From assembly GCA_003557485.1 (NCBI GenBank), contig PWOI01000176.1, forward strand, positions 1 through 20,194: 20,194 bases of DNA, given 5' to 3'. Positions 2,700-19,591 of this stretch are shown in pieces. Positions within the stretch are counted from its first letter, which is position 1. Each line of letters opens with the position of its first letter. A program made the translations under genes and the position numbers. The notes beneath the pieces were generated by a model that saw only the letters and a list, made by a program, of their open reading frames with translations, had not been told where the DNA came from and did not search any database. This stretch comes from Elusimicrobiota bacterium. GTDB taxonomy: Bacteria; CG03; SLGR01; PWQF01.

Positions 2700-2759
2700 A
2701 CTTGTTGTAATATGCATAATTATACAAAAATGTATAAAATCGAATTAAACAACAAGTAT
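2698..2759 (+). promoter_or_regulatory. 11-bp inverted repeat, likely AbiEi operator
   Basis: The arms ATACTTGTTGT (2698-2708) and ACAACAAGTAT (2749-2759) are perfect reverse complements separated by 40 bases. The left arm covers the end of the -10 box and the likely transcript start; the right arm covers the first two bases of the AbiEi start codon. A smaller inverted repeat, TTATACA (2720-2726) and TGTATAA (2731-2737), and the palindrome TATGCATA (2711-2718) lie between. AbiEi proteins are known to bind paired inverted repeats upstream of their own gene and repress cooperatively. Use as an autoregulatory operator is therefore likely but inferred. Confidence 0.6.
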
Positions 2760-3543
2760 GGATAAGTATTTAGAAAAACTTCAATCTAAAGGTGTTTATA
2801 CTTTTACCAGGGATGATCTAAAAAAAAACCTTCCAATTTCCCTGGCCGGTATAAATATGAGTATTTCCCGTTATCTGAAAAGGGGAAAGATTGCAAGAGT
2901 CAAAAGCGGGTTTTATGTAATAGTTCCTCCTGAATACAAAAAATCCGGGATTTTACCTCCCTTCTGGTTTGCAGATGATTTGATGTCATATATTGATTCA
3001 GAATATTACGTGGGGCTGAGTAGCGCTGCGGCAATCTACGGAGCATCTCACCAACAGGCCCGGATTTTTCAGATTGTTTCAGCTAAGCAGGTAAAAGATA
3101 TAAGGGTTAAAAACTTAAAAATAAATTTCATATCAAAAAATAAAATCGAGCCTGAAAAATATATTCGCAGTAAGAAGACCGAAACCGGAAAAGTAAAAAT
3201 ATCTTCTCCGGAACTTACCTGCTTTGACCTTGTCCGCTATATCTCTCAGTCCGGCGGTATTAACAGTGTGACTACTGTTCTGCAGGAACTTCATGAGGAA
3301 ATTGAATGGAAGAAGCTTTTTGAACTTGCTGATTATTATAAGAAGGCAATTTATGTGCAGAGGTTGGGATACCTTTTTGAATACCTGGGATTTGCGGAAT
3401 CTGCCGTACGGCTGAATGAGTGGCTTGAGGGAAAAAATTCTTACCCGGTATATTTAGTTCCGGATAAAAGAAGAAAAAGTTTGCGAATGGACAAAAAATG
3501 GAAAGTATTGATTAACAGGCAGGTGGAATCGGCGGTTCAATGA
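2758..3543 (+). CDS. AbiEi-like antitoxin / transcriptional regulator
   Basis: A 261-residue protein with the layout of AbiEi, the antitoxin of the type IV AbiE toxin-antitoxin family. An N-terminal winged-helix region (residues 1-60, including ISRYLKRGKIARVKSGFYV) is followed by the family's central segment (YYVGLSSAAAIYGASHQQ, 83-100), then SPELTCFDLVRY (150-161) and RLGYLFEYLGF (202-212). Full length looks intact. The usual toxin partner, AbiEii, would lie directly downstream on the same strand. Here the next gene is convergent, 22 bases away, and belongs to a different two-gene module, so this looks like a solitary AbiEi. No Shine-Dalgarno precedes the ATG, but a strong promoter and an inverted repeat end exactly there, supporting this start. 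Confidence 0.82.
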   Translation: MDKYLEKLQSKGVYTFTRDDLKKNLPISLAGINMSISRYLKRGKIARVKSGFYVIVPPEYKKSGILPPFWFADDLMSYIDSEYYVGLSSAAAIYGASHQQARIFQIVSAKQVKDIRVKNLKINFISKNKIEPEKYIRSKKTETGKVKISSPELTCFDLVRYISQSGGINSVTTVLQELHEEIEWKKLFELADYYKKAIYVQRLGYLFEYLGFAESAVRLNEWLEGKNSYPVYLVPDKRRKSLRMDKKWKVLINRQVESAVQ

Positions 3544-3565: not shown

Positions 3566-4270
3566 TTATTTATTTTGTTGTTTTATGAAAACAGCTAGAA
3601 AGTCCATAATTCTTTGTGCGCGGGCATTTCTAGTAGGTCCGGGTTCTAAATGACATAAAAGCGCTTCTTCAAAATTACCTGATTTGATCAGCTTCCTAAA
3701 ATAATCTTTAAGAAAAGAAATCACATTTGTCGGGCCATTAAATAAAATATCGAGGTTTGCCTGGCCATCCAGGACAGTAATTATGTCTTCTATATCATAA
3801 CTTGTCCTGAAATCATTATTCCCCCGGCTTTTGAAAGCTTCAATTTTAGAAGCTATAAAGTGGTGTAGAGTAAAAGCTGAGATTGTAGTTCCGCCGGATA
3901 GAGTTATTTTAATGGCATTTTCAATTCCTTCCGGGTACCATGGATTTGAAAATCCCAGAATTGACGGTTCGGTTGGCATTATATCAACGATTGTGCTTTT
4001 ATAAATCCATCGGCAAATAGGGGCATCCTTTTTCGTATAGTGCCTAAAGCCTAATTCTTGCAATTTTTCTTCAAGTGTATAGTATTCTGTTCTGGTTGTT
4101 ACCTCAATTATACAATCAATGTCTTTGGTCTGGCGAATTTCCTGAACAGCAGGATCATTTATATATAATGAAACTGCCGCGCCCCCGATAAAATAAACGT
4201 TATCTTTCAGAGATTTTAGGGCCTTTGCTACTTGCTCAATTTTTTTAGTATATACTGATTGAAAAACCAT
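3566..4270 (-). CDS. Nucleotidyltransferase-fold protein (AbiEii/MNT-like), putative toxin
   Basis: A 234-residue protein with the nucleotidyltransferase signature: GG at 29-30 (YFIGGAAVSLY), the catalytic pair D50-x-D52 (TKDIDCIIEV) and a likely third acidic residue at D96 (TIVDIMPT). A later KIEAFKSRGNNDF segment and D159/E161/D162 (residues 142-162) resemble the K-x4-R...D element near the active site of AbiEii-type toxins. The reaction is probably transfer of a nucleotide to RNA, protein or a small molecule; the target is unknown. It starts immediately after the stop of the HTH gene (TAA then ATG with no gap on the minus strand), so the two are co-translated. It could be a toxin, a defence enzyme or a housekeeping transferase; no toxicity evidence is visible in sequence. 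Confidence 0.75.
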   Translation of the reverse strand: MVFQSVYTKKIEQVAKALKSLKDNVYFIGGAAVSLYINDPAVQEIRQTKDIDCIIEVTTRTEYYTLEEKLQELGFRHYTKKDAPICRWIYKSTIVDIMPTEPSILGFSNPWYPEGIENAIKITLSGGTTISAFTLHHFIASKIEAFKSRGNNDFRTSYDIEDIITVLDGQANLDILFNGPTNVISFLKDYFRKLIKSGNFEEALLCHLEPGPTRNARAQRIMDFLAVFIKQQNK

Positions 4271-4783
4271 TTATTTAATTATCTTTCTTATCTCTTTTTC
4301 TGCAATAGTTGTTTCTCTGGCTTTGCCGGTTCTAAGGCAGTCGATAAGGGAAAGGAGCTCATAGAGTTTTGGGTCTTTTAATGCTGCCCTCGGCACAGAG
4401 ACATACAATGGTTCTATTGAAATGCCGCGTACTTTGCCATATTCATATGGCCACACATACATGTCACTGTCAGCAGACTCAACAAATTCGGACATCGGTT
4501 TTGCAGAATGCGCAGTAGGTATTCCCCTGGAAATTGATCCCGGTACTACCGGAAAAGCATACTTAACGCCATGAAAGATAAATTCTTCTAATGACGATTT
4601 AATAGGTGTTTTACTTATTGGATTGTATAGCCCTGCGATATCGCATCTTTTTATAGCACTGTGGGTTTCAGATTTACTTAATTCGATGGATTCAGCCAAG
4701 CTTCCGATACTCCAGGGGTTTTTATCCAGGAGCAGGATTTTGACCATTACCAATATATCTTGAGGTTTTAGCTTACTATTCAT
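4271..4783 (-). CDS. HTH-type partner of the nucleotidyltransferase
   Basis: I place the start at the ATG at 4783 (170 residues) and not at the upstream ATG at 4855. A good minus-strand promoter lies between the two (-35 at 4850-4855, -10 at 4827-4832), and the extra 24 residues are hydrophobic and unlike the family. The N-terminal 50 residues look like a winged-helix fold (SIGSLAESIELSKSETHSAI, 25-44). The rest carries a distinctive block, GVKYAFPVVPGSISRGIPTA (72-91), followed by WPYEYGKVRG and LKDPKLYELLSLIDCLRTGKARE (135-157). From memory this type of protein recurs directly upstream of nucleotidyltransferase genes in diverse bacteria. It is likely the DNA-binding, antitoxin-like half of the pair. 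An inverted repeat just upstream may be its operator. Family function is not established to my knowledge. Confidence 0.72.
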   Translation of the reverse strand: MNSKLKPQDILVMVKILLLDKNPWSIGSLAESIELSKSETHSAIKRCDIAGLYNPISKTPIKSSLEEFIFHGVKYAFPVVPGSISRGIPTAHSAKPMSEFVESADSDMYVWPYEYGKVRGISIEPLYVSVPRAALKDPKLYELLSLIDCLRTGKARETTIAEKEIRKIIK

Positions 4784-4800
4784 AATTGTGCCGTTCTCAA

Positions 4801-4815
4801 TTCGCAAACTGCGAA
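4801..4815 (-). promoter_or_regulatory. Inverted repeat upstream of HTH gene, possible operator
   Basis: TTCGCA (4801-4806), a 3-base spacer, then TGCGAA (4810-4815) form a perfect 6-bp inverted repeat. It lies 18 bases before the HTH start codon and just downstream of the predicted transcript start (about 4820). Autoregulation by the HTH protein is plausible but inferred. Confidence 0.4.
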
Positions 4816-4826
4816 CGCTTATATGA

Positions 4827-4855
4827 ATAATAATAACAATCAAAAGAAAAGTCAA
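4827..4855 (-). promoter_or_regulatory. Promoter of the HTH-nucleotidyltransferase pair
   Basis: On the minus strand, TTGACT (4855-4850) is followed after 17 bases by TATTAT (4832-4827). Five of six bases match consensus in each box. It predicts a transcript start near 4820 and decides the HTH start codon at 4783. Confidence 0.6.
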
Positions 4856-4960: not shown

Positions 4961-5671
4961 ATGAGAAAGTATTATAAACCAGAAATGAAAGAGCAAGAGA
5001 TTAAATATTTTTCACAGATATCCGAAGCCATTGTTTCGGATAAGTATATCGAGGAGATTCTTAACCTTGTAGCGGCTATGACTGCCAAACTTATGGGTTC
5101 AAAAATCTGTTCAATAATGCTTCTTGATAAAGAGAAAAACGAGCTTTTTATCACCGCTACCCAGAGCCTCAGCCCCACCTACAGGAATAAGCCTAATATA
5201 AAGGTAGGGCAATCTGTAAGCGGGCGGGCGGTAAACGAGAAAAAGCCCGTTACGGTAATGGATGTAACGAGTGAAGCAAATTACATGTATCCGGAAATCG
5301 CAAAGCAGGAAGGGATTGTTTCTATGCTTGCGGTTCCGATGACCCTTAAAGGGGAGATAATCGGGGTTGTTAACAGCTATACCGAAACCGAACACGAATT
5401 CAGCGCGTCAGAAATAGATACTCTCCAGGCCGTTGCCAACCAGGCTGCTGTTGCTATAGAAAACACGAAACTGCGCAACGAAGTCCTTAAAACCAAGGAA
5501 GACCTTGAGAACAGAAAAAAAGTGGAAAAAGCAAAAGGGCTTCTTATGGAAAACCTCGGTATAAATGAAAAGCAGGCTTACGAGAAGATAAGAAAAAAGT
5601 CGATGGACTCGAGGAAAACAATGCCGGAAATAGCCGAGGCTATAATACTGGCACATGAATTGAGCAGTTGA
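4961..5671 (+). CDS. GAF-ANTAR transcription antitermination regulator
   Basis: A 236-residue cytoplasmic regulator. Residues 28-166 form a GAF sensor domain (SIMLLDKEKNEL, GQSVSGRAV, SMLAVPM, GVVNSY, LQAVANQAAVAIENTKL are typical). A helical linker (165-190) leads into an ANTAR RNA-binding domain (about 178-233) with the conserved AKGLLME (191-197), QAYEKIRKKSMDSR and MPEIAEAII (221-229). ANTAR proteins bind RNAs with two hexaloop hairpins and control expression of the gene behind them. Just such a pair lies in the leader of gltB downstream (5727-5789). The ligand of the GAF domain cannot be read from sequence; a nitrogen-status signal is inferred from the target. No Shine-Dalgarno is visible before 4961; an alternative ATG at 4985 would remove 8 residues only. 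There is no receiver domain, so phosphorylation control of the EutV type is not indicated. Confidence 0.9.
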   Translation: MRKYYKPEMKEQEIKYFSQISEAIVSDKYIEEILNLVAAMTAKLMGSKICSIMLLDKEKNELFITATQSLSPTYRNKPNIKVGQSVSGRAVNEKKPVTVMDVTSEANYMYPEIAKQEGIVSMLAVPMTLKGEIIGVVNSYTETEHEFSASEIDTLQAVANQAAVAIENTKLRNEVLKTKEDLENRKKVEKAKGLLMENLGINEKQAYEKIRKKSMDSRKTMPEIAEAIILAHELSS

Positions 5672-5689: not shown

Positions 5690-5718
5690 TTGACAAATTA
5701 AATATTTTTTATTAGCAT
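5690..5718 (+). promoter_or_regulatory. Promoter of the gltB operon
   Basis: A perfect -35 TTGACA (5690-5695) is followed after 17 bases by TAGCAT (5713-5718, four of six matches to TATAAT). The predicted transcript start near 5725 falls two bases before the first hexaloop hairpin, so the leader RNA would begin with the regulatory element. Confidence 0.55.
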
Positions 5719-5726
5719 TATTTTAC

Positions 5727-5789
5727 AAGACAAAGAAGTCTTACCAGGCAAAGCCCGCCTTTGATTGTTTATTCCGGACAATGATGTCC
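5727..5789 (+). promoter_or_regulatory. Two-hexaloop ANTAR target RNA in gltB leader
   Basis: Hairpin 1 has stem AAGAC (5727-5731) and GTCTT (5738-5742) around the loop AAAGAA. Hairpin 2 has stem GGAC (5776-5779) and GTCC (5786-5789) around the loop AATGAT. Both loops have exactly six bases with A at position 1 and G at position 4, the signature established for RNA bound by ANTAR domains. The 33-base linker can form a further small stem (CAAAG 5749-5753 with CTTTG 5759-5763). An ANTAR gene lies just upstream. Binding by that protein is inferred and no folding energy was computed. The second stem is short (4 bp). Confidence 0.7.
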
Positions 5790-5824
5790 TCTGTGTTAGG
5801 TTTGTGTTTTAATAAAACAGAGGA
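5787..5824 (+). promoter_or_regulatory. Stem that hides the gltB ribosome-binding site (or weak terminator)
   Basis: TCCTCTGT (5787-5794) pairs perfectly with ACAGAGGA (5817-5824) over 8 bp, with a 22-base loop. The 3' arm contains the gltB Shine-Dalgarno AGAGG (5819-5823), 12 bases before the ATG at 5836. The 5' arm shares bases 5787-5789 with the 3' arm of ANTAR hairpin 2, so both cannot form together. The bases after the stem (TTAAATTAATT) lack a U run, so translational masking seems likelier than Rho-independent termination. An inner alternative stem, TGTTTT with AAAACA (5805-5819), competes. Confidence 0.55.
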
Positions 5825-5835
5825 TTAAATTAATT

Positions 5836-8800
5836 ATGAAAACAAGGGGCCTTTACAGTCCTTCAAAAGAACATTCCAGCTGCGGTGTAGGATTCGCGGC
5901 TAATATAAACGGAAAACCTTCTCATTCAATTGTAGAAGACGGCCTTGATATGCTCAAAGGCCTTGTCCACAGGGGCGGGATGGGCAGTGACGGTGTCTCG
6001 GGTGACGGCGCCGGAATGATGACAGGAATTCCTAACAGATTTTTTTCCGGAGTTGTTGATTTCAAGCTTCCGGAAGAAGGCAAGTATGCCGTAGCTTTTC
6101 TTTTTCTCCCCCGGCAGGATAGCGAGCGGGAATTTGTAGTAAATGAATTTCTGAATATTACCCGCGGTGAAGGGGGCCGCATCCTCGGCCGCCGCGTTGT
6201 GCCGACCGATCCGGGATGCCTTGGAGAAGTAGCCCGGGAAAGTATGCCGGAGTTTATGCAGGTTTTTGTTGAGTTTCCCGGGACTGAAGGGGATGAACTT
6301 GAAAGAAAGTCCTATGTAACCAGGAAAAGTATTGAGAAAAAAATCCGTTCAAAAAGTATTCCTCCTGAAAAATTTTATATTGTCAGTTTTTCTTCCAGGA
6401 CGATTGTTTACAAAGGTATGCTGGCCGGTTTGCAGACAGGACAGTTTTATCCTGACCTGAAGGAGAAAAGTTACGAAAGCTCCTTTACTGTAATACACCA
6501 GCGCTACAGCACCAATACATTCCCGTCCTGGCCTCTTTCACAGCCTTTCAGGCATATAGCCCATAATGGCGAGTTCAATACTATTAAGGGAAATACCAAT
6601 TATATTCAGGCGCGTCAGGGTACATTCTCCTCATCTCTTTTCGGGGAAGATATAGAAAAGATAATTCCTGTTATAGAGAAGGGAAGCAGTGATTCGGCTG
6701 CCTTTGATAGCGTTTTTGAGCTCCTCTCAAAAAGCGGAAGGCCCCCGGAACACACTGCAATGATGATGATACCGGAGGCATTCGGGGACGCTTATCATAT
6801 GAGCTCGGCCAGAAGGGGTTTCTATGAGTTTCATTCCTCTTTTCAGGAGCCGTGGGACGGTCCGGCTGCGGTTGTTTTTACCGACGGGGTCAAAGTGGGG
6901 GCTACGCTTGACCGTAACGGGCTGCGTCCGCTCCGGTATTTTATAACCTCAAAGGGTAAAATAGTAATAGCTTCAGAGACCGGGCTGGTTAAAGCTCCTG
7001 CTTCTGAAATAAAGGAAAAAGGGCGGCTCGGACCCGGAAAAATGATAATAGTTGATCTTGCCGCCGGCTTGATTAAAAAAGATGACGAGATAAAGTCGGA
7101 TATCTCAAGGCGCCGGCCATACAGGAGATGGCTGAGCGAAAACAAGATAGAGCTTAAAGGCCTTCTTCAGCCTGCCGAAGCCCTGAATATGCCTGAAAAA
7201 GAAACAAAAATCCGGCAGAAACTTTTCGGGTATACCCTTGAAGATCTTAAAGATATTATGGCTCCAATGGCCGTCAACGGACAGGAGCCCGTGGGTTCTA
7301 TGGGAGATGACGAGCAGCTTGCGGTGCTTTCAAACAGGCCCCATATCCTGTTCAGGTATTTCCGGCAGCTTTTCGCCCAGGTGACCAATCCTCCGATTGA
7401 CCCGTACAGGGAAAGCCTTGTTATGTCTCTTATGAGTTTCATAGGAAGAGAGCATAACATACTGGATGAGACCCCCCTGCACTGCCGGCAGCTCAAGCTT
7501 GCCCATCCCGTTCTTACAAATGAGGATATAGAAAGGCTGCTTTACCGAAACGCGGGCGGATTGGGAGCCGGTAGAATAGATATTGTTTTTCCGGTTTCCC
7601 GGGGCACTTCCGGGCTGGAGGAAGCCCTGAAAAGTATATGTGACGAGGCAGAAAGAAAAGTAGACCAGGGGCACCAGATTTTGATACTCAGCGACCGGCA
7701 GGCGGACAGGGAGAGGGCTGCCGTCCCTTCCCTTCTTGCCGTCAGTGCGGTCAGCCGCCATCTTACCGATCAAGGTAAAAGGCATCTTGTCGGGCTTATA
7801 TGCGAGACAGGGGAAGCAAGAGAAGTTTCCGATTTTGCCCTTCTGATTTCTTTCGGGGCCAGTGCGGTTAATCCCTATATTGCACTTGAAAGCCTCAAGA
7901 TGCTTATAAGAGACGGCATACTGCCTTCAGAGATGAAAGAGGAAGACTGCCTCGATAATTACATAACAGCTGTCAAAAAGGGTTTACTAAAGATAATGTC
8001 CAAGATGGGAATTTCAACAATACGAAGTTACAAGTTTGCCCGTATTTTTGAAGCGGTTGGGTTGGGGCAGGAGCTTACGGAAAGATATTTTCCGGAGGTA
8101 GAATCCACTATCGGCGGCATTACTATAGAAGATATTGCCAGGGACTGCCTGAGGCGTCATGAAAACGCCATGGGTTCCGGCCTTGATAAGCCCCTTGAGT
8201 GCGGGGGAAGGTTCAGGTACAGGAAGAATTCCGACAAACATCTTCTTACTCCAGATGCGGCAGTCTCCTTCCGCCGCGCTGTCCGGGAGGGTGACAGGGA
8301 CGAGTATATGAAGTTTGCTTCCCTGGTAGATTCCTCCGGATGTACACTGCGCAGCGCCATGGAGTTTAAAGAAAGAAATAGTATTTCAATTGATGAAGTT
8401 GAAGGAGAGGAGTCAATATTGAAGCGCTTCTATGCTTCGGCCATGTCATTCGGAAGTATTTCCAAAGAAGCTCATGAGGCTATAGCCGCTGCAATGAACA
8501 GCCTGGGATGCGCCAGTAACAGCGGTGAAGGAGGCGAGGACAAGAAAAGATTCGGAACGGAGAAAGTTTCTGCGGTTAAACAGGTTGCTTCGGGAAGGTT
8601 CGGGGTAGACATAGAATACCTGGTAAATGCCAGGGAACTTCAGATAAAGATGGCCCAGGGCGCAAAACCCGGCGAGGGCGGGCAGCTGCCGGGCCATAAA
8701 GTTGACAGTACTATAGCCGATGTAAGGAATTCCACTCCCGGAGTTATGCTTATATCGCCTCCGCCCCACCACGATATTTACTCCATAGAGGACCTGGCCC

Positions 8801-10329
8801 AGCTTATATACGACCTGAAATGCGCCAACAGGGGCGCCAGGGTTTCGGTAAAGCTTGTAAGCGAGTCGGGTGTGGGAACAATAGCCGCCGGTGTTGCCAA
8901 GGCCGGGGCGGATATGATTCTAATAAGCGGCAGCGATGGGGGAACGGGAGCTTCTCCTCTTTCCTCTATAAAGGGTGCAGGCACTCCCTGGGAAATAGGG
9001 CTTTCCGAGACCCGGCAGATCCTTCAGCTAAACGGTCTCAGGGATTGGGTGCGGCTGCAGACGGACGGCCAGCTCCGGACAGGTACCGACATAGTGAAAG
9101 CGGCGCTGCTGGGTGCCGAGGAGTTCGGGTTCGGCACGGTTGCTCTTATGACAATGGGATGCGTAATGGTCAGGCAGTGCCATTCCAATACGTGTCCGGT
9201 AGGAGTTGCAACCCAGGACGGCCGGCTCAGGAAAAAGTTTGACGGACGGAGCGAGTACCTTGTTAACTATATGAGGTTCCTTGCCTGGCATACCAGGCAG
9301 ATAATGGCCTCGCTCGGATTCAGGAGTATAGATGAAATGGTCGGCCGTGCGGATATGCTCAGGGAGTCTCCGGAGGCTGTAAACAAAGGTGTTGATTTCT
9401 CAAAATTGCTGGTAGTTCCGGATTCCGGAACCGGAAGAATATATTCCGCCGGGAGCAGAAACGAAAAAAAAGAATCAAAGAGTCTAAACGGCCGTATTCT
9501 TAGCGTTGCGCGTATGGTCCTGGAAAAAGGCGGCAGTACGGAAATGACCTTTGATATTAATAACAGTGACCGGGCAACAGGCGCACCCCTGAGCGGAGAG
9601 ATCGCCACTAAATACGGCCGCAGCGGCCTTAAAGACGATACGTTTAAGATACTGCTTAATGGAAGCGCCGGGCAGAGTTTCGGAGCGTTTCTGGCAGGGG
9701 GAGTGACACTTCTTCTTGAAGGCGAAGCGAACGACTACCTCGGCAAGGGGCTATCCGGAGGAAGGATAATTGTCCGTCCCGGAAAGGATCTTCTTAAGTC
9801 GGGTTTTGATCCGGCAGAGAATACAATAAGCGGTAATGTTAATCTTTTCGGAGCCGTTGCGGGAGAAGTTTTCATAAACGGAATAGCGGGTGAGCGTTTC
9901 GCTGTCAGAAACAGCGGCGCCGAAGCGGTGGTGGAAGGGGTAGGAGACCACGGGTGTGAATATATGACCGGCGGAACAGTTGTTGTTCTCGGGGATACAG
10001 GTGTTAATTTTGCCGCCGGCATGAGCGGCGGAATTGCCTATGTCTATGACAGCGGGGGGCTTTTTGATACAAGATGCAGCCTTGATATGGTTGACATAGA
10101 AAATATTGAACTTGACGAGGACATTGAAAAACTTCGCCTTCTCCTTGAAAAGCACTATAATTTCACCTCAAGTCCTAGGGCGAAGCATATACTTGATAAC
10201 TTTTCCAGGGAGATTAACTTTTTCGTTAAAGTTTTCCCGCTTGATTACAAGAAGGCGCTCAAGCGAATGAGAGAAAAAGAGAAGAGAAGTTCGGAAAGAG
10301 AGATTGTTACCGAGGAGGTTTATCTATGA
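5836..10329 (+). CDS. gltB: Glutamate synthase (NADPH) large subunit
   Basis: A 1497-residue GOGAT alpha subunit: it hydrolyses glutamine and uses the ammonia with 2-oxoglutarate to form glutamate. The N-terminal type II amidotransferase domain begins at C16 (SSCGVGFAA), exposed after removal of a 15-residue propeptide. The central domain follows, then the FMN-binding synthase domain with the 3Fe-4S ligands C1109, C1115 and C1120 (MGCVMVRQCHSNTCPVGVAT), in the usual C-x5-C-x4-C spacing. The C-terminus is the GxxGG beta-helix (for example MTGGTVVVLGDTG, FAAGMSGGIAYVYD). Length is normal and all domains look intact. It is first in the operon and overlaps gltD as ATGA. Its leader carries the ANTAR hexaloop element and a stem hiding its ribosome-binding site. 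Confidence 0.97.
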   Translation: MKTRGLYSPSKEHSSCGVGFAANINGKPSHSIVEDGLDMLKGLVHRGGMGSDGVSGDGAGMMTGIPNRFFSGVVDFKLPEEGKYAVAFLFLPRQDSEREFVVNEFLNITRGEGGRILGRRVVPTDPGCLGEVARESMPEFMQVFVEFPGTEGDELERKSYVTRKSIEKKIRSKSIPPEKFYIVSFSSRTIVYKGMLAGLQTGQFYPDLKEKSYESSFTVIHQRYSTNTFPSWPLSQPFRHIAHNGEFNTIKGNTNYIQARQGTFSSSLFGEDIEKIIPVIEKGSSDSAAFDSVFELLSKSGRPPEHTAMMMIPEAFGDAYHMSSARRGFYEFHSSFQEPWDGPAAVVFTDGVKVGATLDRNGLRPLRYFITSKGKIVIASETGLVKAPASEIKEKGRLGPGKMIIVDLAAGLIKKDDEIKSDISRRRPYRRWLSENKIELKGLLQPAEALNMPEKETKIRQKLFGYTLEDLKDIMAPMAVNGQEPVGSMGDDEQLAVLSNRPHILFRYFRQLFAQVTNPPIDPYRESLVMSLMSFIGREHNILDETPLHCRQLKLAHPVLTNEDIERLLYRNAGGLGAGRIDIVFPVSRGTSGLEEALKSICDEAERKVDQGHQILILSDRQADRERAAVPSLLAVSAVSRHLTDQGKRHLVGLICETGEAREVSDFALLISFGASAVNPYIALESLKMLIRDGILPSEMKEEDCLDNYITAVKKGLLKIMSKMGISTIRSYKFARIFEAVGLGQELTERYFPEVESTIGGITIEDIARDCLRRHENAMGSGLDKPLECGGRFRYRKNSDKHLLTPDAAVSFRRAVREGDRDEYMKFASLVDSSGCTLRSAMEFKERNSISIDEVEGEESILKRFYASAMSFGSISKEAHEAIAAAMNSLGCASNSGEGGEDKKRFGTEKVSAVKQVASGRFGVDIEYLVNARELQIKMAQGAKPGEGGQLPGHKVDSTIADVRNSTPGVMLISPPPHHDIYSIEDLAQLIYDLKCANRGARVSVKLVSESGVGTIAAGVAKAGADMILISGSDGGTGASPLSSIKGAGTPWEIGLSETRQILQLNGLRDWVRLQTDGQLRTGTDIVKAALLGAEEFGFGTVALMTMGCVMVRQCHSNTCPVGVATQDGRLRKKFDGRSEYLVNYMRFLAWHTRQIMASLGFRSIDEMVGRADMLRESPEAVNKGVDFSKLLVVPDSGTGRIYSAGSRNEKKESKSLNGRILSVARMVLEKGGSTEMTFDINNSDRATGAPLSGEIATKYGRSGLKDDTFKILLNGSAGQSFGAFLAGGVTLLLEGEANDYLGKGLSGGRIIVRPGKDLLKSGFDPAENTISGNVNLFGAVAGEVFINGIAGERFAVRNSGAEAVVEGVGDHGCEYMTGGTVVVLGDTGVNFAAGMSGGIAYVYDSGGLFDTRCSLDMVDIENIELDEDIEKLRLLLEKHYNFTSSPRAKHILDNFSREINFFVKVFPLDYKKALKRMREKEKRSSEREIVTEEVYL

Positions 10330-11750
10330 AGGTTCCCGGAGGCTTTCTTAAACATCCACGCAGGGTACGCTCAAGGCGCCCGGCAGAGGAAAGAGTAAAA
10401 GATTTCCGTGAAATAGATAAATTTCCTGCCGCCGGGCAGGCCTCTATTCAGGCCGACCGGTGCCTGGACTGCGGTATTCCGTTCTGTCACGGCCTGGGAT
10501 GCCCTTTGGGAAACAGCATCCCGGATGTTAACGGGTTTGCCTCGCTGGGGAATATAGAGGAGGCCTGGAGAAGGCTGCAGGAAACAAATCCTATGCCGGA
10601 AATAACCGGAAGGATATGTCCTGCGCCCTGCGAAAAGGCCTGTACTCTTGCGCTTGGAAACGATGCGGTCTCAATAAGAGATATAGAACTTTTTGTCTCT
10701 GAAGAAGCTTTTAAGAGAGGCCTGGTAAAACCCGTTCGACCGAAGCGGGAGACAGGCAGAAAAGTTATTGTTATAGGTTCGGGGCCTGCGGGTCTTGCGG
10801 CGGCTTCCCGTCTCAGAAGAAAAGGGCATACGGTGACTGTAATGGAAAAAGCATTTCTTCCGGGAGGCATGCTTCGGTTCGGTATTCCTGATTTTAAACT
10901 TGATAAAAGTGTAGTTGACAGGCGGATAAAAATTTTTGAAGAGGAAGGCGTTGCCTTCAGAACCGGTTTCAGAGCAGGCGTTGATATGAAAGCTGAAAAT
11001 ATTTTAAAAAGCTGCGACGCCCTGCTTATAGCAACAGGCGCCCGCCAGCCGAGAGACCTTAATGTTGAAGGCAGGGAGCTTGAGGGAATATATTTCGCTA
11101 TGGAATACCTTTGGGGTATGAACTCTTTCTGCGCGGGTATGCAGAGAGAGGATAAAATTATTTCGGCAAAAGGAAAAAATGTTCTGGTAATAGGGGGGGG
11201 AGATACAGGCAGTGATTGTGCCTGTTCTGCTATCCGGCAGGGTGCAAGGGATGTTCTGCAGGTGGAGATTATGCCTCCGCCGCCGCAGGATAAAGGCGGA
11301 ATAAATCCCTCGTGGCCTGCAATGACCCCGGTTATGAAAAAATCTCCTTCCGACGAAGAAGGTGCCCGGCGTATGTGGTCGGTAGGCCTTGAAAAGTTTG
11401 AAGGAAAGGATGGCAGGGTAAAGAGCGCGCATCTGGCAGAGGTAAAGCAGTCTTCCGGCGGGTTTGAGAAAGTTCCCGGTTCTGAATTTGAAGTAGAGAC
11501 GGAACTTGTAATTCTCGCAATGGGATTTCTGCATCTGCGCCATGATGCCCTGATTGGAGAACTCGGATTAAAACTTGACGGCAGAGGAAATATAGAGACC
11601 AGCCGCAGTTTTACTTCCCGGGAAGGTGTTTTTAGCGCCGGCGACGCTGCCCGCGGAGCATCTCTTGTGGTTTCAGCCCTTGAAGACGGCATATCGGCTG
11701 CAGAAGATATTGATGCTTACCTGTCCGGGGATAAAAAGGAGAGGAAATAA
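10326..11750 (+). CDS. gltD: Glutamate synthase (NADPH) small subunit
   Basis: A 474-residue GOGAT beta subunit that oxidises NADPH and passes electrons via FAD and 4Fe-4S clusters to GltB. The N-terminus has the two cysteine groups of the family: C46, C49, C54, C59 (DRCLDCGIPFCHGLGCP) and C98, C102, C106 (ICPAPCEKAC). An FAD-binding GSGPAG (151-156) and an NADPH-binding GGGDTG (290-295) follow. A late FAD contact motif, VFSAGDAARGASLVVSA, is near the C-terminus. The start is supported by GAGGAGG seven bases upstream, inside the end of gltB. A long open frame on the opposite strand (10487-11692) is a composition shadow. Confidence 0.97.
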   Translation: MKVPGGFLKHPRRVRSRRPAEERVKDFREIDKFPAAGQASIQADRCLDCGIPFCHGLGCPLGNSIPDVNGFASLGNIEEAWRRLQETNPMPEITGRICPAPCEKACTLALGNDAVSIRDIELFVSEEAFKRGLVKPVRPKRETGRKVIVIGSGPAGLAAASRLRRKGHTVTVMEKAFLPGGMLRFGIPDFKLDKSVVDRRIKIFEEEGVAFRTGFRAGVDMKAENILKSCDALLIATGARQPRDLNVEGRELEGIYFAMEYLWGMNSFCAGMQREDKIISAKGKNVLVIGGGDTGSDCACSAIRQGARDVLQVEIMPPPPQDKGGINPSWPAMTPVMKKSPSDEEGARRMWSVGLEKFEGKDGRVKSAHLAEVKQSSGGFEKVPGSEFEVETELVILAMGFLHLRHDALIGELGLKLDGRGNIETSRSFTSREGVFSAGDAARGASLVVSALEDGISAAEDIDAYLSGDKKERK

Positions 11751-11751
11751 A

Positions 11752-11775
11752 ATGGATAAGGAGAAAGAAAAATGA
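11752..11775 (+). CDS. 7-codon leader frame before glnA
   Basis: ATG at 11752 encodes MDKEKEK and stops at TGA 11773-11775, overlapping the glnA ATG as ATGA. It has its own GGAG-containing site (about 11739-11743), and its body contains the AAGGAG of glnA. It may couple glnA translation to gltD, or be chance. No peptide function is implied. Confidence 0.25.
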   Translation: MDKEKEK

Positions 11776-13109
11776 GAGTCAGGAAAACTAAAAAGGAAGA
11801 TGTTTTCGAGGCAGTAAAAAAGAATAACGTAAAGTTTGTAAAGTTCTGGTTTACTGACATACTGGGACAGATAAAGTCATTCGCGGTTACGCCTTCCGAA
11901 CTTGAGGCGGCCTTTGAAGACGGAATGGGATTTGACGGGTCTTCGATAGAGGGGTTTGCCAGGATATATGAGAGCGATCTTATCGCTATGCCGGATCCTT
12001 CCACTTTTACGCTTCTTCCCTGGAGAGAGGGTGAAAGTAAAGTGGCAAAGGTATTCTGCGACATACAGACTCCTGAAGGTGAGCCTTACATAGGATGTCC
12101 GCGTTATGTGCTTAAAAAGAACCTGGAAGATATGAAAAAAGCCGGGTTTGATACCTTCAATGTCGGGCCGGAGCTGGAGTATTTTTATTTCAAGAGCGAT
12201 AAGGCTCCCGAGATTATGGACGAAGGCGGATACTTTGACCTTCTTCCTCTTGATCTCGGGCAGGACCTGCGCAGGGATACAATCCTCTCGCTTGAGAAAA
12301 TGGGGATACCGGTAGAGTACTCGCATCACGAAGTGGCTCCCAGTCAGCATGAGATAGACCTGAAGTATGCCCCGGCCATAGAGATGGCCGATGATGTGAT
12401 AAGCTACAAGGTTACCGTCAAGGCCATAGCGATGAACCACGGCGCCTACGCTTCTTTTATGCCCAAGCCGATAGCCGGAGTTAACGGAAGCGGAATGCAT
12501 GTCCATATGTCGCTCTTTAAAGACGGCAAGAACGCTTTCTACAACGCCGATGGTGATTATCACCTGACAGACGAGGCCCGCAGTTTCATCGCCGGTATAA
12601 TGAAACACTCCGGTGAGATATGCGCACTAACAAACCAGTGGGTGAACTCCTACAAGCGCCTTGTCCCCGGATATGAAGCTCCTGTTTACCTGGTATGGGG
12701 ACAGAAAAACAGATCGGCGCTTGTGAGGGTGCCGCGTTACCAGCCCGGCAAGGAGAATGCCACCAGGATCGAGCTCAGGTTCCCCGATCCGGCCTGCAAC
12801 CCCTACCTTGCCTTCAGCGTTATGCTGGCCGCCGGTCTTGAAGGGATAAAGAACAACTATCCTCTTGCCGATCCGGTAGAGTATGATGTTTTCGGCCTTA
12901 GCGAAGAAGAAAGGAAAGAGAAAGGGATAGAGACCCTCCCGGGAAGCCTTATAGAGGCCATACAGGTAGCGGAGAAATCCGAATTCCTGAAAAAAGCCCT
13001 TGGGGAGCATGTCTTTAACAGCTTCATAACAAACAAGAAAATTGAGTGGGACAGTTACAGGACACACGTCACCAATTATGAAGTTGATTCCTATCTGCCT
13101 ATTCTGTAA
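11772..13109 (+). CDS. glnA: Glutamine synthetase, type I
   Basis: A 445-residue enzyme making glutamine from glutamate, ammonia and ATP. Motifs in order: FDGSSIEGF (54-62), the metal ligands E134 and E136 (GPELEYFYF), HHEVAPSQHEID with E187 and E194, GMHVHMSL (241-248, H243 as the likely metal-binding histidine), and RLVPGYEAPVYL plus NRSALVRVP. The short length and the lack of the extra segment found in adenylylated enzymes point to the GSI-alpha type. R64 in GFARIYESD corresponds to the arginine that mediates glutamine feedback in Bacillus GlnA, so feedback inhibition is likely. The ribosome-binding site AAGGAG (11758-11763) is 8 bases upstream. It lies 21 bases behind gltD. Confidence 0.97.
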   Translation: MRVRKTKKEDVFEAVKKNNVKFVKFWFTDILGQIKSFAVTPSELEAAFEDGMGFDGSSIEGFARIYESDLIAMPDPSTFTLLPWREGESKVAKVFCDIQTPEGEPYIGCPRYVLKKNLEDMKKAGFDTFNVGPELEYFYFKSDKAPEIMDEGGYFDLLPLDLGQDLRRDTILSLEKMGIPVEYSHHEVAPSQHEIDLKYAPAIEMADDVISYKVTVKAIAMNHGAYASFMPKPIAGVNGSGMHVHMSLFKDGKNAFYNADGDYHLTDEARSFIAGIMKHSGEICALTNQWVNSYKRLVPGYEAPVYLVWGQKNRSALVRVPRYQPGKENATRIELRFPDPACNPYLAFSVMLAAGLEGIKNNYPLADPVEYDVFGLSEEERKEKGIETLPGSLIEAIQVAEKSEFLKKALGEHVFNSFITNKKIEWDSYRTHVTNYEVDSYLPIL

Positions 13110-13173
13110 GGCTGCATAGAGGCTGTTGCTGACGGGAGAAGGAGAATTTTACTGAGTTAAAGGTTAAATTAAA

Positions 13174-14700
13174 ATGATAGCAGTTATAGATTATGGTTCT
13201 CAGTACACGATGCTCATTGCCAGGAAGGTCAAGGAACTGGGCGTCAAAAGCCGGGTCTTTCCGGCCGGAAGTAAAATAGACTGTTCAAATCAGAATATAC
13301 AGGGAATTATACTTTCGGGTTCTCCTTCTTCCGTCAGTGAAAAAGGCAGCCTTATGCCCGATAAAAGCGTCTTTGAATCAGGCGCTGCGGTCCTGGGCAT
13401 ATGCTACGGCATGCAGGTTATTGTAAGCAGCTCGGGGGGAGTTGTCGGAAGAGGAAAAAAACGGGAGTACGGTAAAGGCGTTTTGAAAGTTAACGGAAAG
13501 AGTCTTCTTCTGGATGGACTTCCCGGTGAAAGCAGGGTTTGGATGAGTCATTATGACAGGGTTCTTGAAGTGCCTGAAGGGTTCAGCGTTACCGCTTCTA
13601 CGGATGACCTTGAAACCGCTGTTATAGAGAACACCGATAAAAACATTTTCGGCGTGCAGTTTCATCCGGAAGTTACACATACCGAGTACGGAACCCGTCT
13701 TCTCTCCAACTTTGTTTTTAATATATGCCGGGCTGAAAAAGACTGGAACCTGGGAGACTGGATAGACGATACGGTTGAAGATATAAAAAGAAGGGTCGGA
13801 GACGGCAAGGTTATAATGGCCCTTTCAGGAGGGGTGGATTCAAGCGTGGTATGCGTTCTTCTTTCCAGGGCGCTGGAGAACAACCGGTTCTTTCCTTTTT
13901 TTGTTGATCACGGATTGATGCGGCAGAAGGATATTGAAAGGATAAAAAGGGTTTTTATCGAGGGGCTCTCAATCCCCGTGACCATACTTGATGAAAAGAA
14001 AAGGTTTTTCAGGAAACTCAAGGGAGTCAGTGACCCCGAGAAGAAAAGAAAGATTATAGGAAATGAGTTTATAAAGGCCTTTCTCAGAGCCTCAGGAAAA
14101 ATAAAAGGAGCAACACATCTTGCCCAGGGGACGATATTTCCTGATATAATAGAATCGGCCAAATCAGGCAGTTCCGCTGCCAAGATCAAGTCCCATCATA
14201 ATGTGGGCGGCCTTCCCGATAAACTCAAGCTAAAGCTTCTTGAACCTCTTAAAGAACTATATAAGGACGAGGTAAGGGAGATAGGGATTAAAATTGGACT
14301 TCCGCAGGAACTGATAAAACAGCACCCTTTTCCCGGTCCCGGACTCGGGGTCAGGATAATGGGCCCCGTTGACAGCAGGAAGGCTGAAATATTAAATAAA
14401 GCCGACGCTGTCCTTGACCAGGAGCTTAAAGAAAACGGCCTTTATTACGATATGTGGCAGGCATTCTGCGTATTTCTACCTGTAAGGACTGTCGGGGTAA
14501 TGGGAGATGCGAGAACTTATGAAAACGTTGTTGCCCTGAGGTGCGTGAACTCGGTAGATGCAATGACCGCTTCATGGTCCGATATACCGCATAAAGTTCT
14601 TGAACGCATATCAACAAGAATTGTAAACGAGGTTGAAGGAATCAACAGGGTTGTTTTTGATGTAACCAATAAGCCGCCCGGGACAATAGAATGGGAATAG
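13174..14700 (+). CDS. guaA: GMP synthase (glutamine-hydrolysing)
   Basis: A 508-residue fused two-domain enzyme converting XMP to GMP with glutamine-derived ammonia. The class I amidotransferase domain has C77 (GICYGMQ), H164 and E166 (VQFHPEVTH). The ATP pyrophosphatase domain has SGGVDSS (218-224), QGTIFPDIIES and the C-terminal dimer domain ending in NKPPGTIEWE. The fused form is bacterial, whereas archaea usually have split subunits. The 64-base gap after glnA is the largest inside the operon and shows no clear terminator or promoter. AAAGG (13159-13163) serves as a ribosome-binding site 10 bases from the ATG. Its product draws on the glutamine made by the gene before it. Confidence 0.96.
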   Translation: MIAVIDYGSQYTMLIARKVKELGVKSRVFPAGSKIDCSNQNIQGIILSGSPSSVSEKGSLMPDKSVFESGAAVLGICYGMQVIVSSSGGVVGRGKKREYGKGVLKVNGKSLLLDGLPGESRVWMSHYDRVLEVPEGFSVTASTDDLETAVIENTDKNIFGVQFHPEVTHTEYGTRLLSNFVFNICRAEKDWNLGDWIDDTVEDIKRRVGDGKVIMALSGGVDSSVVCVLLSRALENNRFFPFFVDHGLMRQKDIERIKRVFIEGLSIPVTILDEKKRFFRKLKGVSDPEKKRKIIGNEFIKAFLRASGKIKGATHLAQGTIFPDIIESAKSGSSAAKIKSHHNVGGLPDKLKLKLLEPLKELYKDEVREIGIKIGLPQELIKQHPFPGPGLGVRIMGPVDSRKAEILNKADAVLDQELKENGLYYDMWQAFCVFLPVRTVGVMGDARTYENVVALRCVNSVDAMTASWSDIPHKVLERISTRIVNEVEGINRVVFDVTNKPPGTIEWE

Positions 14701-14707
14701 AGAAATA

Positions 14708-15172
14708 ATGCGAGTAGCAGTTGAAGTTTACCGCAGGGGAAACTGCCTTGAGGGCCGGGAGCTTTCCCGGGAAATAGAAGAACTCGGTATAGAAGAAAAA
14801 TACAGCGTATCGGTTTCTAAAATATATGTTATTGAGCTTGATGAAGATTCGGTTCCGGGAAATTCGGATGAAAGAATAAAAAGAATAGCCGGAGAAATAC
14901 TCATAGATCCCGTTGTAGAGAAATATTCTGTAGGGATAAGGAGTATGGAGGGTGTCTCCGTTGAAGTCTACTTTAAAAAGGGCGTTCTTGATATAGCCGG
15001 GCGCCGCGCGGCAGAGGCGGCAGAACTGGCGGGTTTGGGAGAAGGCCTTATATCCGTTTCGTCGGGAGACAGGTATGTTATAAGCGGCTCTGTATGCGAT
15101 ATGGAAAAGTGCCGCTATATTTCAGAGAAGCTTTTCTACAATAAAGTAATTCAGCAGGCAACCTGCAGATGA
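14708..15172 (+). CDS. purS: Tandem PurS: FGAM synthase accessory subunit, two PurS domains
   Basis: PurS is normally about 80 residues; this protein has 154 and contains two PurS-like units. Unit 1 (about residues 2-74) runs from VAVEVYRRGNCLEGRELSRE to IAGEILIDPVVEKY. Unit 2 (about 83-150) runs from VSVEVYFKKGVLDIAGRRAA to YISEKLFYNKVIQ. Both share the beta-strand/helix order, the GNCLEGRE/GVLDIAGR turn and the closing LxxxxVI(E/Q) motif. PurS bridges PurL and PurQ so that ammonia from glutamine reaches FGAR. The gene starts 7 bases after guaA and overlaps purL as ATGA. A double PurS followed by a PurSL-like PurL suggests a split version of the fused PurSL protein. Confidence 0.85.
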   Translation: MRVAVEVYRRGNCLEGRELSREIEELGIEEKYSVSVSKIYVIELDEDSVPGNSDERIKRIAGEILIDPVVEKYSVGIRSMEGVSVEVYFKKGVLDIAGRRAAEAAELAGLGEGLISVSSGDRYVISGSVCDMEKCRYISEKLFYNKVIQQATCR

Positions 15173-17523
15173 ACCTCAATATAACAGAAATGTCAGCCTG
15201 CCAGCTTAAAGATTTTTCCCGCAGGTATATCCTTTCCCTTACCCTTGAAGAGCTTCAAACTGTAAGAGACCACTTTAAAGAAAAAGGAAGGCAGCCTACC
15301 AGGCTGGAACTGGAATGCATAGCCCAGACCTGGAGCGAGCACTGCAATCATAAGACAATGACCGGCCGCGTAGAGTATACCGAAAACGGGAATACGAAAA
15401 CCTACGGTAACCTTCTCAAGGAAACAGTATTCAAACCGCTGGAGAGTATGGATACCGGTCACTGCCTCAGCGTATTTAAGGACAATGCGGGGATTATAAA
15501 ATTTACACCCGGCTGGGGGATAGCAATGAAAGCCGAAACCCACAACCATCCTTCTGCTATAGAACCCTATGGCGGCGCCGCTACCGGCGTTGGAGGAGTC
15601 ATAAGGGATATACTCGGCGCGGGCCTTGGCGCAAAACCGGTTATGAATATTGACGTATTCTGTTTTGGTGATCTGGATACTCCGCACTCTGAAATACCGG
15701 AAGGGGTGCTTCACCCCAGGAGAGTTTTTCGTGGCGTCGTTAAAGGTGTCCGGGATTACTCAAACAGAATGGGGATACCTACTTCAAGCGGGGCCATAAT
15801 TTTTGACGAAAAATACCTTTACAATCCCCTTGTTTACTGCGGAACAATAGGTGTAATACCCGAAAAGTGCGTAGATAAGCAGGTTGTTGAAGGAGATATA
15901 ATTCTTGCGGTAGGGGGCAAGACGGGAAAGGACGGGCTTCACGGAGCAACCTTTTCTTCAGTCGGGCTGGACGGCTGCGCCGATTCGGGGTGTGTCCAGA
16001 TAGGGGACCCTATAACTGAAAAACAGTTTGCCGATATACTGCTTAAACTCCGCGACGAAAACCTTTATAATGCCGTTACAGATTGCGGAGCCGGAGGGTT
16101 TTCTTCCGCTGTAGGGGAAATGGGCAGGGAGACCGGAGCTGTTGTCAACCTTGAGAAAGTTACGCTTAAACAAAAAGATATGGAGCCCTGGGAAATATTT
16201 CTTTCGGAGTCCCAGGAACGCATGGTACTAAGCGTGCCCGGGGAAAAAATTGAAAGAGTCCGATATCTTCTTGAGAGTGAAGATGTAGGGTTTGCTGAAA
16301 TAGGAAAATTTGGCGGCGGAAAATTGAAGGTTTACTATGAAGATAAACTTGAGTGCGAACTTGATATGGATTTTCTCCACGGCGGTTACCCGCGCACTGT
16401 TCGGACCGCCTTATGGACAGATAAAGAGTCTGAAGATATTTTCGTAAAAGAAACAGGCCCTGCCGATGTATTGATGAAAATATTCTCTGATCCCAATAAC
16501 GCCTCCAAGGAAAAAGTCATAAGGCAGTACGACCACGAGGTGCAGGGTTCTTCGGTAATAAGGCCTCTTGAAGGTATGGATCAGGATATGCCCCAGGACG
16601 GCTGTGTTATACGGCCTTTAAACGGCAGCAGCGCGGGAATAGCAGTCGGGCTTGGAATCAACCCTTTTTACGGTATTCAGGATCCCTTCCGTATGGCTGC
16701 AACTGTTGCGGAGGAGGCGGTCAGAAACGCCGTTTCCTGCGGAGGCGATATAAGGCGGGCGGGGCTTATGGATAATTTCTGCTGGGGTGACACGGAAGAC
16801 CCCGAAATACTCGGCGAACTTGTAAGAGCCTGCCAGGGATGCGGGGATGCCAGCGGCATACTCAAAATACCGTTTATTTCAGGGAAAGACAGCCTCAATA
16901 ATTTTTACTCAACTCCTTCCGCGGAAAAAATGAATATTCCCGGTACGCTCCTGGTCACTTGTGTAGCTCCGGTTGAAAATGTGGAGAAAGCCTGCCGGAG
17001 CAGTTTTACCGGGCCGGGAAACCTGATCTACCTTGCAGGTGAAACCCTCTGCGAGCTGGGTTATTCGGCACTCTCCAGGTCCGGTTTCTGCAGCGGAGGA
17101 GAAGTCCCTGCCCTGCGCAAGGAAATTTCACAGGGTGTTCTTGAGTTTATAAGGAAATGTATTGAGCGGGGTCTGTTAAGGAGCTGCCACGACTTGAGCG
17201 AGGGAGGTTTGGCTCTTGCATTCGCGGAGATGTGTTTTTCGGGAACGGGAGCGGAGATTGATATATCGGCGTTTGACCTTAAAGGGCGCTCCGGCTGCGG
17301 TGAGATGTGGGCAAAACTTTTTTCCGAGAGCAATTCCCGCTTTTTGATAGAAGTTTCTCCCGGAAACGCGGCTGAAGCCGAAGCCCTTGCGGATATCCCG
17401 CTGATAAGTATAGGAAGAACAACCGAAAACGGATTGCTGCAGGTATCGGATGGAGCTAAAACTGTTATCAAAAGCCCTGCGGACAGGTTTAAAAAGGTTT
17501 ATACGGAAGCGTTAAAATGGTAA
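15169..17523 (+). CDS. purL: Phosphoribosylformylglycinamidine synthase, catalytic subunit
   Basis: A 784-residue ATP-dependent enzyme for the fourth step of purine synthesis, FGAR to FGAM. It carries WSEHCNHKT (55-63, H58) and AETHNHPSAIEPYGGAATGV (122-141) with the glycine-rich ATP-binding stretch, then a second AIRS-like half containing DGCVIRPLNGS and CHDLSEGGLALAFAEM. No amidotransferase domain is fused; that role falls to PurQ, encoded next. Length is a little above the usual small PurL. Motifs such as FKDNAGIIKF and VFCFGDLD resemble the PurL part of PurSL-type proteins. It overlaps purS by 4 bases and purQ by 7 bases. Confidence 0.95.
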   Translation: MNLNITEMSACQLKDFSRRYILSLTLEELQTVRDHFKEKGRQPTRLELECIAQTWSEHCNHKTMTGRVEYTENGNTKTYGNLLKETVFKPLESMDTGHCLSVFKDNAGIIKFTPGWGIAMKAETHNHPSAIEPYGGAATGVGGVIRDILGAGLGAKPVMNIDVFCFGDLDTPHSEIPEGVLHPRRVFRGVVKGVRDYSNRMGIPTSSGAIIFDEKYLYNPLVYCGTIGVIPEKCVDKQVVEGDIILAVGGKTGKDGLHGATFSSVGLDGCADSGCVQIGDPITEKQFADILLKLRDENLYNAVTDCGAGGFSSAVGEMGRETGAVVNLEKVTLKQKDMEPWEIFLSESQERMVLSVPGEKIERVRYLLESEDVGFAEIGKFGGGKLKVYYEDKLECELDMDFLHGGYPRTVRTALWTDKESEDIFVKETGPADVLMKIFSDPNNASKEKVIRQYDHEVQGSSVIRPLEGMDQDMPQDGCVIRPLNGSSAGIAVGLGINPFYGIQDPFRMAATVAEEAVRNAVSCGGDIRRAGLMDNFCWGDTEDPEILGELVRACQGCGDASGILKIPFISGKDSLNNFYSTPSAEKMNIPGTLLVTCVAPVENVEKACRSSFTGPGNLIYLAGETLCELGYSALSRSGFCSGGEVPALRKEISQGVLEFIRKCIERGLLRSCHDLSEGGLALAFAEMCFSGTGAEIDISAFDLKGRSGCGEMWAKLFSESNSRFLIEVSPGNAAEAEALADIPLISIGRTTENGLLQVSDGAKTVIKSPADRFKKVYTEALKW

Positions 17524-18239
17524 AGAAAGCAATTGTAATCAAAGCCCCGGGAACAAACAATGATTTTGAAACGGCCCGGGCCCTGGAAATGGCGGGAGCC
17601 CAGGCAAGTATTGTCCATATAAACAGGATAGCTGCCGGCCAGACACGGCTTGATGATTTCTCAATAATGGTAATACCCGGGGGTTTTTCTTATGGCGATG
17701 AACTCGGTGCGGGAAAAATGTTCTCCCTTTTTTTAAAACACAGGTTCAGGGAAGAATTCGAAAAGTTTATAAAAAAAGGAAAACTTGTCGCGGGTATATG
17801 CAACGGCTTTCAGGTTCTTGTAAAGGCAAATGTTTTTCCCGAACTATGCAGTCCGCAGAGCCTGACCCTCACTTCAAACGATTGCGGTACTTTCATTTGC
17901 AGGTGGGTGGAGCTTGAAGTTGATACCGGCAAATTCTGGTTCAAGGGCCTTGATTGCCGGATAAGTCTCCCCATAGCCCACGCTGAAGGAAAATTTACCG
18001 GCACGGGTGAGACTCTTGATGATATTTCAGAATGCGGCCTGGCCGCGTTGACTTACATTGAAAACCCTAATGGTTCGTATAAGAATATAGCGGGAATTGT
18101 TAACAGGCAGGGAAATGTGCTGGGAATGATGCCCCATCCTGAAAGGTATGTATTTAGTTACCAGTATCCCGGTTTTTTCAGAAGGCCCGAAGAAATCTGG
18201 GGAATTAAAATATACAGGAATATAGTGAAAAATGCGTAA
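17517..18239 (+). CDS. purQ: FGAM synthase, glutamine amidotransferase subunit
   Basis: A 240-residue class I glutamine amidotransferase that releases ammonia for PurL. Catalytic residues visible are C95 (GICNGFQVL) and H207 with E209 (MMPHPERY). The N-terminal APGTNND (10-16) and PGGFSYGDELGAG (54-66) are typical of PurQ. The start codon lies inside the end of purL (7-base overlap, ATGGTAA) with no separate Shine-Dalgarno, so translation is probably coupled. The stop overlaps the purF start by 8 bases. Confidence 0.95.
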   Translation: MVKKAIVIKAPGTNNDFETARALEMAGAQASIVHINRIAAGQTRLDDFSIMVIPGGFSYGDELGAGKMFSLFLKHRFREEFEKFIKKGKLVAGICNGFQVLVKANVFPELCSPQSLTLTSNDCGTFICRWVELEVDTGKFWFKGLDCRISLPIAHAEGKFTGTGETLDDISECGLAALTYIENPNGSYKNIAGIVNRQGNVLGMMPHPERYVFSYQYPGFFRRPEEIWGIKIYRNIVKNA

Positions 18240-19572: not shown

Positions 19573-19591
19573 ATAATAAGGAGAAGAAACT

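Follow-up and report, generated by a model that had tools for sequence, protein, structure and literature searches.

A conserved three-hairpin leader before gltB as a likely RNA target of a GAF-ANTAR regulator, with a possible translational output, in an Elusimicrobiota bacterium

It has been shown that the ANTAR proteins EutV and NasR select RNA hairpin loops that carry A at position 1 and G at position 4 (A1/G4) and are closed by a C-G pair (PMC3369931; PMC7496416). In the structure of EutV, residues R142, K143, K147, K149, E160, Y164, R168, M172 and R175 touch the hexaloop RNA (PMC8934654). EutV requires two hairpins at a set spacing, which is 5-12 nt in Enterococcus faecalis eut, linkers of 3 and 14 nt both failing (PMC3369931), and extension of the linker by 20 nt abolishes EutV antitermination (PMC8934654). 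Two one-component ANTAR proteins have been characterised, neither of them of the GAF type (PMC7496416), and in the available text of PMC3369931 no GAF-ANTAR protein is characterised; in the ANTAR literature that we searched, we met no GAF-ANTAR protein whose RNA target is known. According to the same available text, ANTAR RNAs have already been predicted at glutamate synthase genes of Desulfotomaculum reducens (Ramesh et al., PMC3369931), as well as at P-II, ammonium transporter and glutamine synthetase genes, translational control being suggested for some of them (PMC3369931). The ANTAR RNAs of actinobacteria overlap the ribosome-binding site, and repression is their presumed effect (PMC8164766).

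The present analysis concerns a window of 20,194 nt, the whole of the stretch of DNA that was analysed, in which an earlier note had described two A1/G4 hexaloops in the leader of gltB next to a GAF-ANTAR gene. The features of this locus are as follows.

4961-5671, plus strand: gene for a GAF-ANTAR one-component regulator of 236 amino acids (GAF at about 30-167, long helix 149-199, ANTAR 178-229)
5690-5718, plus strand: sigma-70-like promoter TTGACA-17-TAGCAT of the gltB operon, with 10 of 12 consensus matches
5727-5742, plus strand: hairpin 1, AAGAC[AAAGAA]GTCTT, a C-G-closed A1/G4 hexaloop, pairing probability 0.99
5746-5760, plus strand: hairpin 2, AGGC[AAAGCCC]GCCT, a C-G-closed seven-base loop with A1/G4, between hairpins 1 and 3
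5776-5789, plus strand: hairpin 3, GGAC[AATGAT]GTCC, a C-G-closed A1/G4 hexaloop, the second hairpin of the earlier note
5787-5824, plus strand: Shine-Dalgarno-sequestering stem of 8 bp, TCCTCTGT (5787-5794) with ACAGAGGA (5817-5824), covering AGAGGA
5819-5824, plus strand: Shine-Dalgarno-like AGAGGA of gltB, 11 bases ahead of the ATG at 5836
5836-20194, plus strand: gltB-gltD-glnA-guaA-purS-purL-purQ-purF-purC, nine genes, purC cut by the contig end

Compared with EutV/EutW of E. faecalis eut (PMC3369931; PMC8934654), this locus has in common the A1/G4 hexaloops and nine of 11 RNA-contact residues; in an alignment to EutV (6wsh), the nine residues named above are identical in the regulator, while N173 is replaced by D and R177 by T. 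Both systems set the 3' hairpin in competition with a stem further downstream, which hides the ribosome-binding site in the gltB leader but terminates transcription in eut. Unlike eut, the gltB leader has three hairpins, one of them with a seven-base loop, and 33 nt between the outer two; moreover, a GAF sensor takes the place of the phosphorylated receiver, and the target is gltB-glnA-pur instead of the eut operon. NasR, a NIT-ANTAR protein acting at nasF in Klebsiella oxytoca (PMC7496416), is similar in being a one-component regulator of a nitrogen operon with the same loop and C-G closing preference, but differs in its nitrate-sensing NIT domain, in the use of antitermination and in its other target genes. 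The Desulfotomaculum prediction concerns the same target class, and its available text gives neither the regulator type nor a three-hairpin layout (PMC3369931). The actinobacterial ANTAR RNAs are also associated with translational control, although binding there presumably occludes the site and represses, and here would free it and activate (PMC8164766). The suggestion that such a control circuit was undescribed stands only in part: the GAF-ANTAR type has been named as uncharacterised, but glutamate synthase genes had been predicted before to carry ANTAR RNAs (PMC3369931), which makes the gltB circuit less new than had been claimed.

The identification of the neighbouring gene product as a GAF-ANTAR protein was confirmed by Pfam matches to GAF_2 (74.5 bits) and ANTAR PF03861 (68.1 bits; cut-off 27.3), and the genome encodes no other ANTAR protein. 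In an AlphaFold2 model of the regulator (mean pLDDT 88.8) the GAF domain, the long helix and the ANTAR helices are visible, and a fold search with the GAF domain returned generic GAF matches only (PtsP, cAMP-bound Lcd1 and fRMsr), none of them indicating a ligand. On the other side of the leader, the nine-gene run of nitrogen and purine genes was identified as previously read, from gltB through purC, with the contig ending inside purC; the enzymes encoded at 5836-19572 mostly make or use glutamine (gltB, glnA, guaA, purL/Q, purF), and the operon is possibly a glutamine-centred regulatory unit. Upstream of the regulator, the window also encodes an AbiEi-type antitoxin-like protein (2758-3543, plus strand), which matches Pfam AbiEi_1 with 93 bits; after it come two minus-strand genes (3566-4270 and 4271-4855) whose products have no Pfam match.

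Both hexaloops are present exactly as first described, and a third hairpin, at 5746-5760, had been overlooked. The loops were rightly taken to carry the ANTAR-type invariant bases, as A1/G4 together with a C-G closing pair, the latter found in all three hairpins, matches the preference of EutV and NasR (PMC3369931; PMC7496416). The distance of 55 bases between the ANTAR stop codon, which ends at 5671, and hairpin 1 is likewise correct, and since the promoter-like TTGACA-17-TAGCAT ends at 5718, the predicted transcript start at about 5725, just ahead of the first hairpin, is reasonable. Hairpins 1 and 3 are two stems of at least 3 bp, each bearing a hexaloop with A1 and G4, the arrangement that characterises ANTAR target RNAs. 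When the 164-nt gap was dinucleotide-shuffled 20,000 times, at least one such hairpin of four Watson-Crick pairs arose in 5.0% of the shuffles, and at least two such 4-bp hexaloop hairpins in 0.095%; GACAANGNNGTC occurs ten times in the 2.07-Mb genome, two of these being inside the gltB leader. All three hairpins are part of the minimum-energy structure of the nascent leader (5725-5791), in which hairpin 3 is drawn with an additional A-U pair within its loop.

The comparison of related gltB leaders that had been proposed as a check revealed conserved A1/G4 loops, with compensatory changes in stems 1 and 3 and an invariant stem 2. Within the phylum, the motif is located before gltB in four genomes (G000, G001, G003 and G005); G002 has it ahead of a ppsA-like gene that precedes gltB, and G014 ahead of amt-glnB-glnA. 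In all six leaders a promoter-like element (10-11 of 12 matches) lies directly upstream of hairpin 1. In G001, which belongs to the same genus, lemA- and htpX-like genes stand between the ANTAR gene and gltB, and the gltB leader preserves the three hairpins almost letter for letter. The leader of G003 reads AAAC[AACGAT]GTTT / GGC[AGAGCCA]GCC / GGAC[AATGCT]GTTC and that of G005 ATGAC[AATGAA]GTCAT / GGC[AACGCCT]GCC, the gltB leaders and the ANTAR genes of these two genomes being on separate contigs. Across the six aligned leaders stem 1 is 100% paired and shows two compensatory pairs, and hairpin 3, found in five of the six, is 95% paired versus 76% for shuffled partners, with compensatory changes at three of its four pairs. 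Hairpin 2 has a GGC/GCC stem and a loop with A1 and G4 in every one of the six seed leaders; this stem is invariant and thus uninformative on covariation. In L071, hairpin 2 has a true hexaloop, GGC[AAAGTT]GCC. That the leader hairpins arose by chance, a reading to which the shortness of each of them would lend itself, is extremely improbable in view of the presence of two in only about 0.1% of shuffled leaders, the near-identical hairpins of the sister species with a different gene upstream of gltB, and the compensatory changes in the stems.

A full ANTAR domain is encoded in six of the genomes G000-G015 (G000, G001, G002, G003, G005 and G014), and in the same six a covariance-model search detected the motif with E-values of at most 2.5e-7; the model did not find it in those genomes of this set without an intact ANTAR, and G010 and G012, which have gltB, lack both ANTAR and motif. 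The situation that had been named as a refutation, in which ANTAR gene and gltB are kept and the leader loops are lost, occurs in none of the genomes G000-G015 with an intact ANTAR. As the six positive leaders themselves served to build the model, the independent evidence consists of the absences and of G003 and G005, which were found via their gltB leaders regardless of ANTAR; in addition, the sample of the phylum is small, with incomplete genomes. The covariance model and C-G-closed patterns replaced a simple scan of all loci for A1/G4 pairs, which gave many chance pairs. The next match in the phylum, in G008 (E 0.0036), reads as coding sequence and was rejected, as were weak matches in other genomes (E 0.001-1), the few that were inspected resembling coding sequence by eye. 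In G006 (L040, about 10911-11632, minus strand) the GAF-ANTAR gene contains four in-frame stops and the gdhA leader keeps hairpin 2 next to a degenerate hairpin 1, as if regulator and site were being lost in parallel.

Retention of the hairpins with the regulator and their absence without it looks, at the level of sequence, like a real and little-studied control of nitrogen assimilation. Loop conservation, compensatory stems and the co-occurrence of motif and gene support the earlier proposal that the GAF-ANTAR protein may control the adjacent gltB operon, and the gltB leader is, on these grounds, very likely an RNA target of this regulator. It could also be proposed that the leader, which is structured and conserved, strongly so in the sequence of hairpin 2, is a metabolite riboswitch or a ribosomal attenuator with an incidental ANTAR neighbour; we regard this as quite improbable, as the leader matches no Rfam family (over the window, no family exceeded its gathering score, and no credible match fell in the leader), the motif follows the ANTAR gene even across different contigs, and the ANTAR loop signature occurs three times.

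With regard to the hairpins that an ANTAR target would present to the protein, hairpins 1 and 3 are 33 nt apart with another hairpin between them, and hairpins 1 and 2 are separated by 3 nt, loop 2 having seven bases. The 33-nt linker exceeds the tolerance of EutV, and the bound pair may thus be hairpins 1 and 2; either this pair or hairpins 1 and 3 is possible. A dimer on hairpins 1 and 2 only, with hairpin 3 as an anti-sequestering element or unrelated to binding, is an entirely conceivable if still tentative reading: hairpin 2 is found in six of six leaders versus five of six for hairpin 3, and the 3-nt linker is closer to the 5-12 nt of EutV than 33 nt is (PMC3369931), but a 3-nt linker failed in EutV too, the loop of hairpin 2 is mostly of seven bases and its stem without variation, and hairpin 3 likewise retains A1/G4, the C-G closing pair and compensatory changes.

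As for the consequence of binding, the sequestering stem at 5787-5824 has a folding energy of -13.5 kcal/mol (z -3.6, stronger than shuffles) and a pairing probability of 0.99 in the full leader. This stem and hairpin 3 are mutually exclusive because positions 5787-5789 are common to both, and their competition suggests translational activation. In the sister species G001, in spite of substitutions and an indel, a similar stem covers the AGGAG of that leader. Column-wise compensation between the two sister species was considered and rejected, as the register shifts with the placement of a 2-nt indel (MAFFT); the MAFFT alignment sets the strands in another register, and therefore only the preservation of a stem is claimed. 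This stem is clear in just two species of one genus, and the leader of G005 has neither the third hairpin nor a sequestered site, so that the output differs even inside the phylum.

Outside the phylum, orthologs of the GAF-ANTAR gene with about 40-63% identity occur in Omnitrophota, Nitrospirota, Methylomirabilota and Desantisbacteria, among others, where their neighbours are gltB or an FMN-type glutamate synthase gene, gdhA, glnA, amt and glnB. Downstream of the GAF-ANTAR gene, C-G-closed A1/G4 hexaloops occur shortly before U-runs in L042, L047, L053, L067, L083 and L089, and in several relatives from other phyla A1/G4 hexaloops overlap intrinsic terminators. In L042, L047, L053, L067 and L089 these hexaloop-plus-U-run leaders lie 60-130 nt past the ANTAR stop. 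Some such leaders precede genes for glutamine-dependent NAD synthetase (the next gene in L042, L047, L067 and L089) or glutamate synthase. Within the phylum, G002 has before gdhA (L034 10463-10540, minus strand) GAGAC[AAAGGC]GTCTC, which contributes the 5' arm to a strong terminator whose tail is U7 (z -6.2), a single hexaloop next to the GAF-ANTAR gene in a textbook antiterminator layout. In the Methylomirabilis locus L046 (4390-4478, before gdhA) there are three successive A..G six-base loops, the last running into the Shine-Dalgarno region. The overlap of hexaloops and terminators downstream of the orthologs indicates that the clade probably acts on such RNAs, and classical antitermination is very probably used by the GAF-ANTAR clade in many places.

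These relatives, together with the gdhA leader of G002, are what favours an EutV/NasR-like antitermination at the gltB leader as well, with the 5787-5824 stem acting as a weak or Rho-assisted terminator. Such a mechanism is nevertheless unlikely at this site: neither in the window (ATTAAATTAATT) nor in the sister species is the stem followed by a U-tract, no intrinsic terminator of the EutV/NasR type, overlapping the 3' hairpin, was found in this leader, and the sole terminator-like prediction in it coincides with hairpin 3, whose tail is poor. The output for which we find a modest balance of probability is release of the ribosome-binding site, which is more likely than antitermination.

Taken together, a model in which the gltB leader binds the neighbouring GAF-ANTAR protein, thereby freeing the ribosome site for translation of the operon, appears probable. 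Transcription would begin shortly upstream of hairpin 1, and with the GAF domain in its active state, for which nitrogen status is the likely signal, the ANTAR dimer would engage the RNA and grip two A1/G4 loops of the nascent leader, either those of hairpins 1 and 2 or those of hairpins 1 and 3. The folded hairpin 3 would then withhold 5787-5789 from the Shine-Dalgarno strand, allowing translation of gltB and the remaining operon; if the protein is absent, the longer 5787-5824 stem would win and the ribosome-binding site would be hidden. What the computation shows is that the hairpins exist, are conserved, covary and accompany the regulator, that they begin just past a promoter-like element, and that a rival stem can form; binding, activation over repression, a translational output and the signal are what we add by inference, and the direction of the switch could be the opposite, namely repression. 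In its widest form, in which a GAF-ANTAR protein clamps a three-hairpin leader with A1/G4 loops of six, seven and six bases and frees the ribosome site, as a translation-activating ANTAR switch within a wide clade of nitrogen regulators, the proposal is tentative.

In conclusion, this analysis links one clade of GAF-ANTAR proteins to its predicted RNA and to gltB, gdhA, glnA, amt and glnB in several phyla. It appears that one and the same type of contact between protein and RNA leads to antitermination in some lineages and to release of the ribosome site in another. The analysis further suggests a control of ammonia assimilation in poorly studied, mostly uncultured bacteria.
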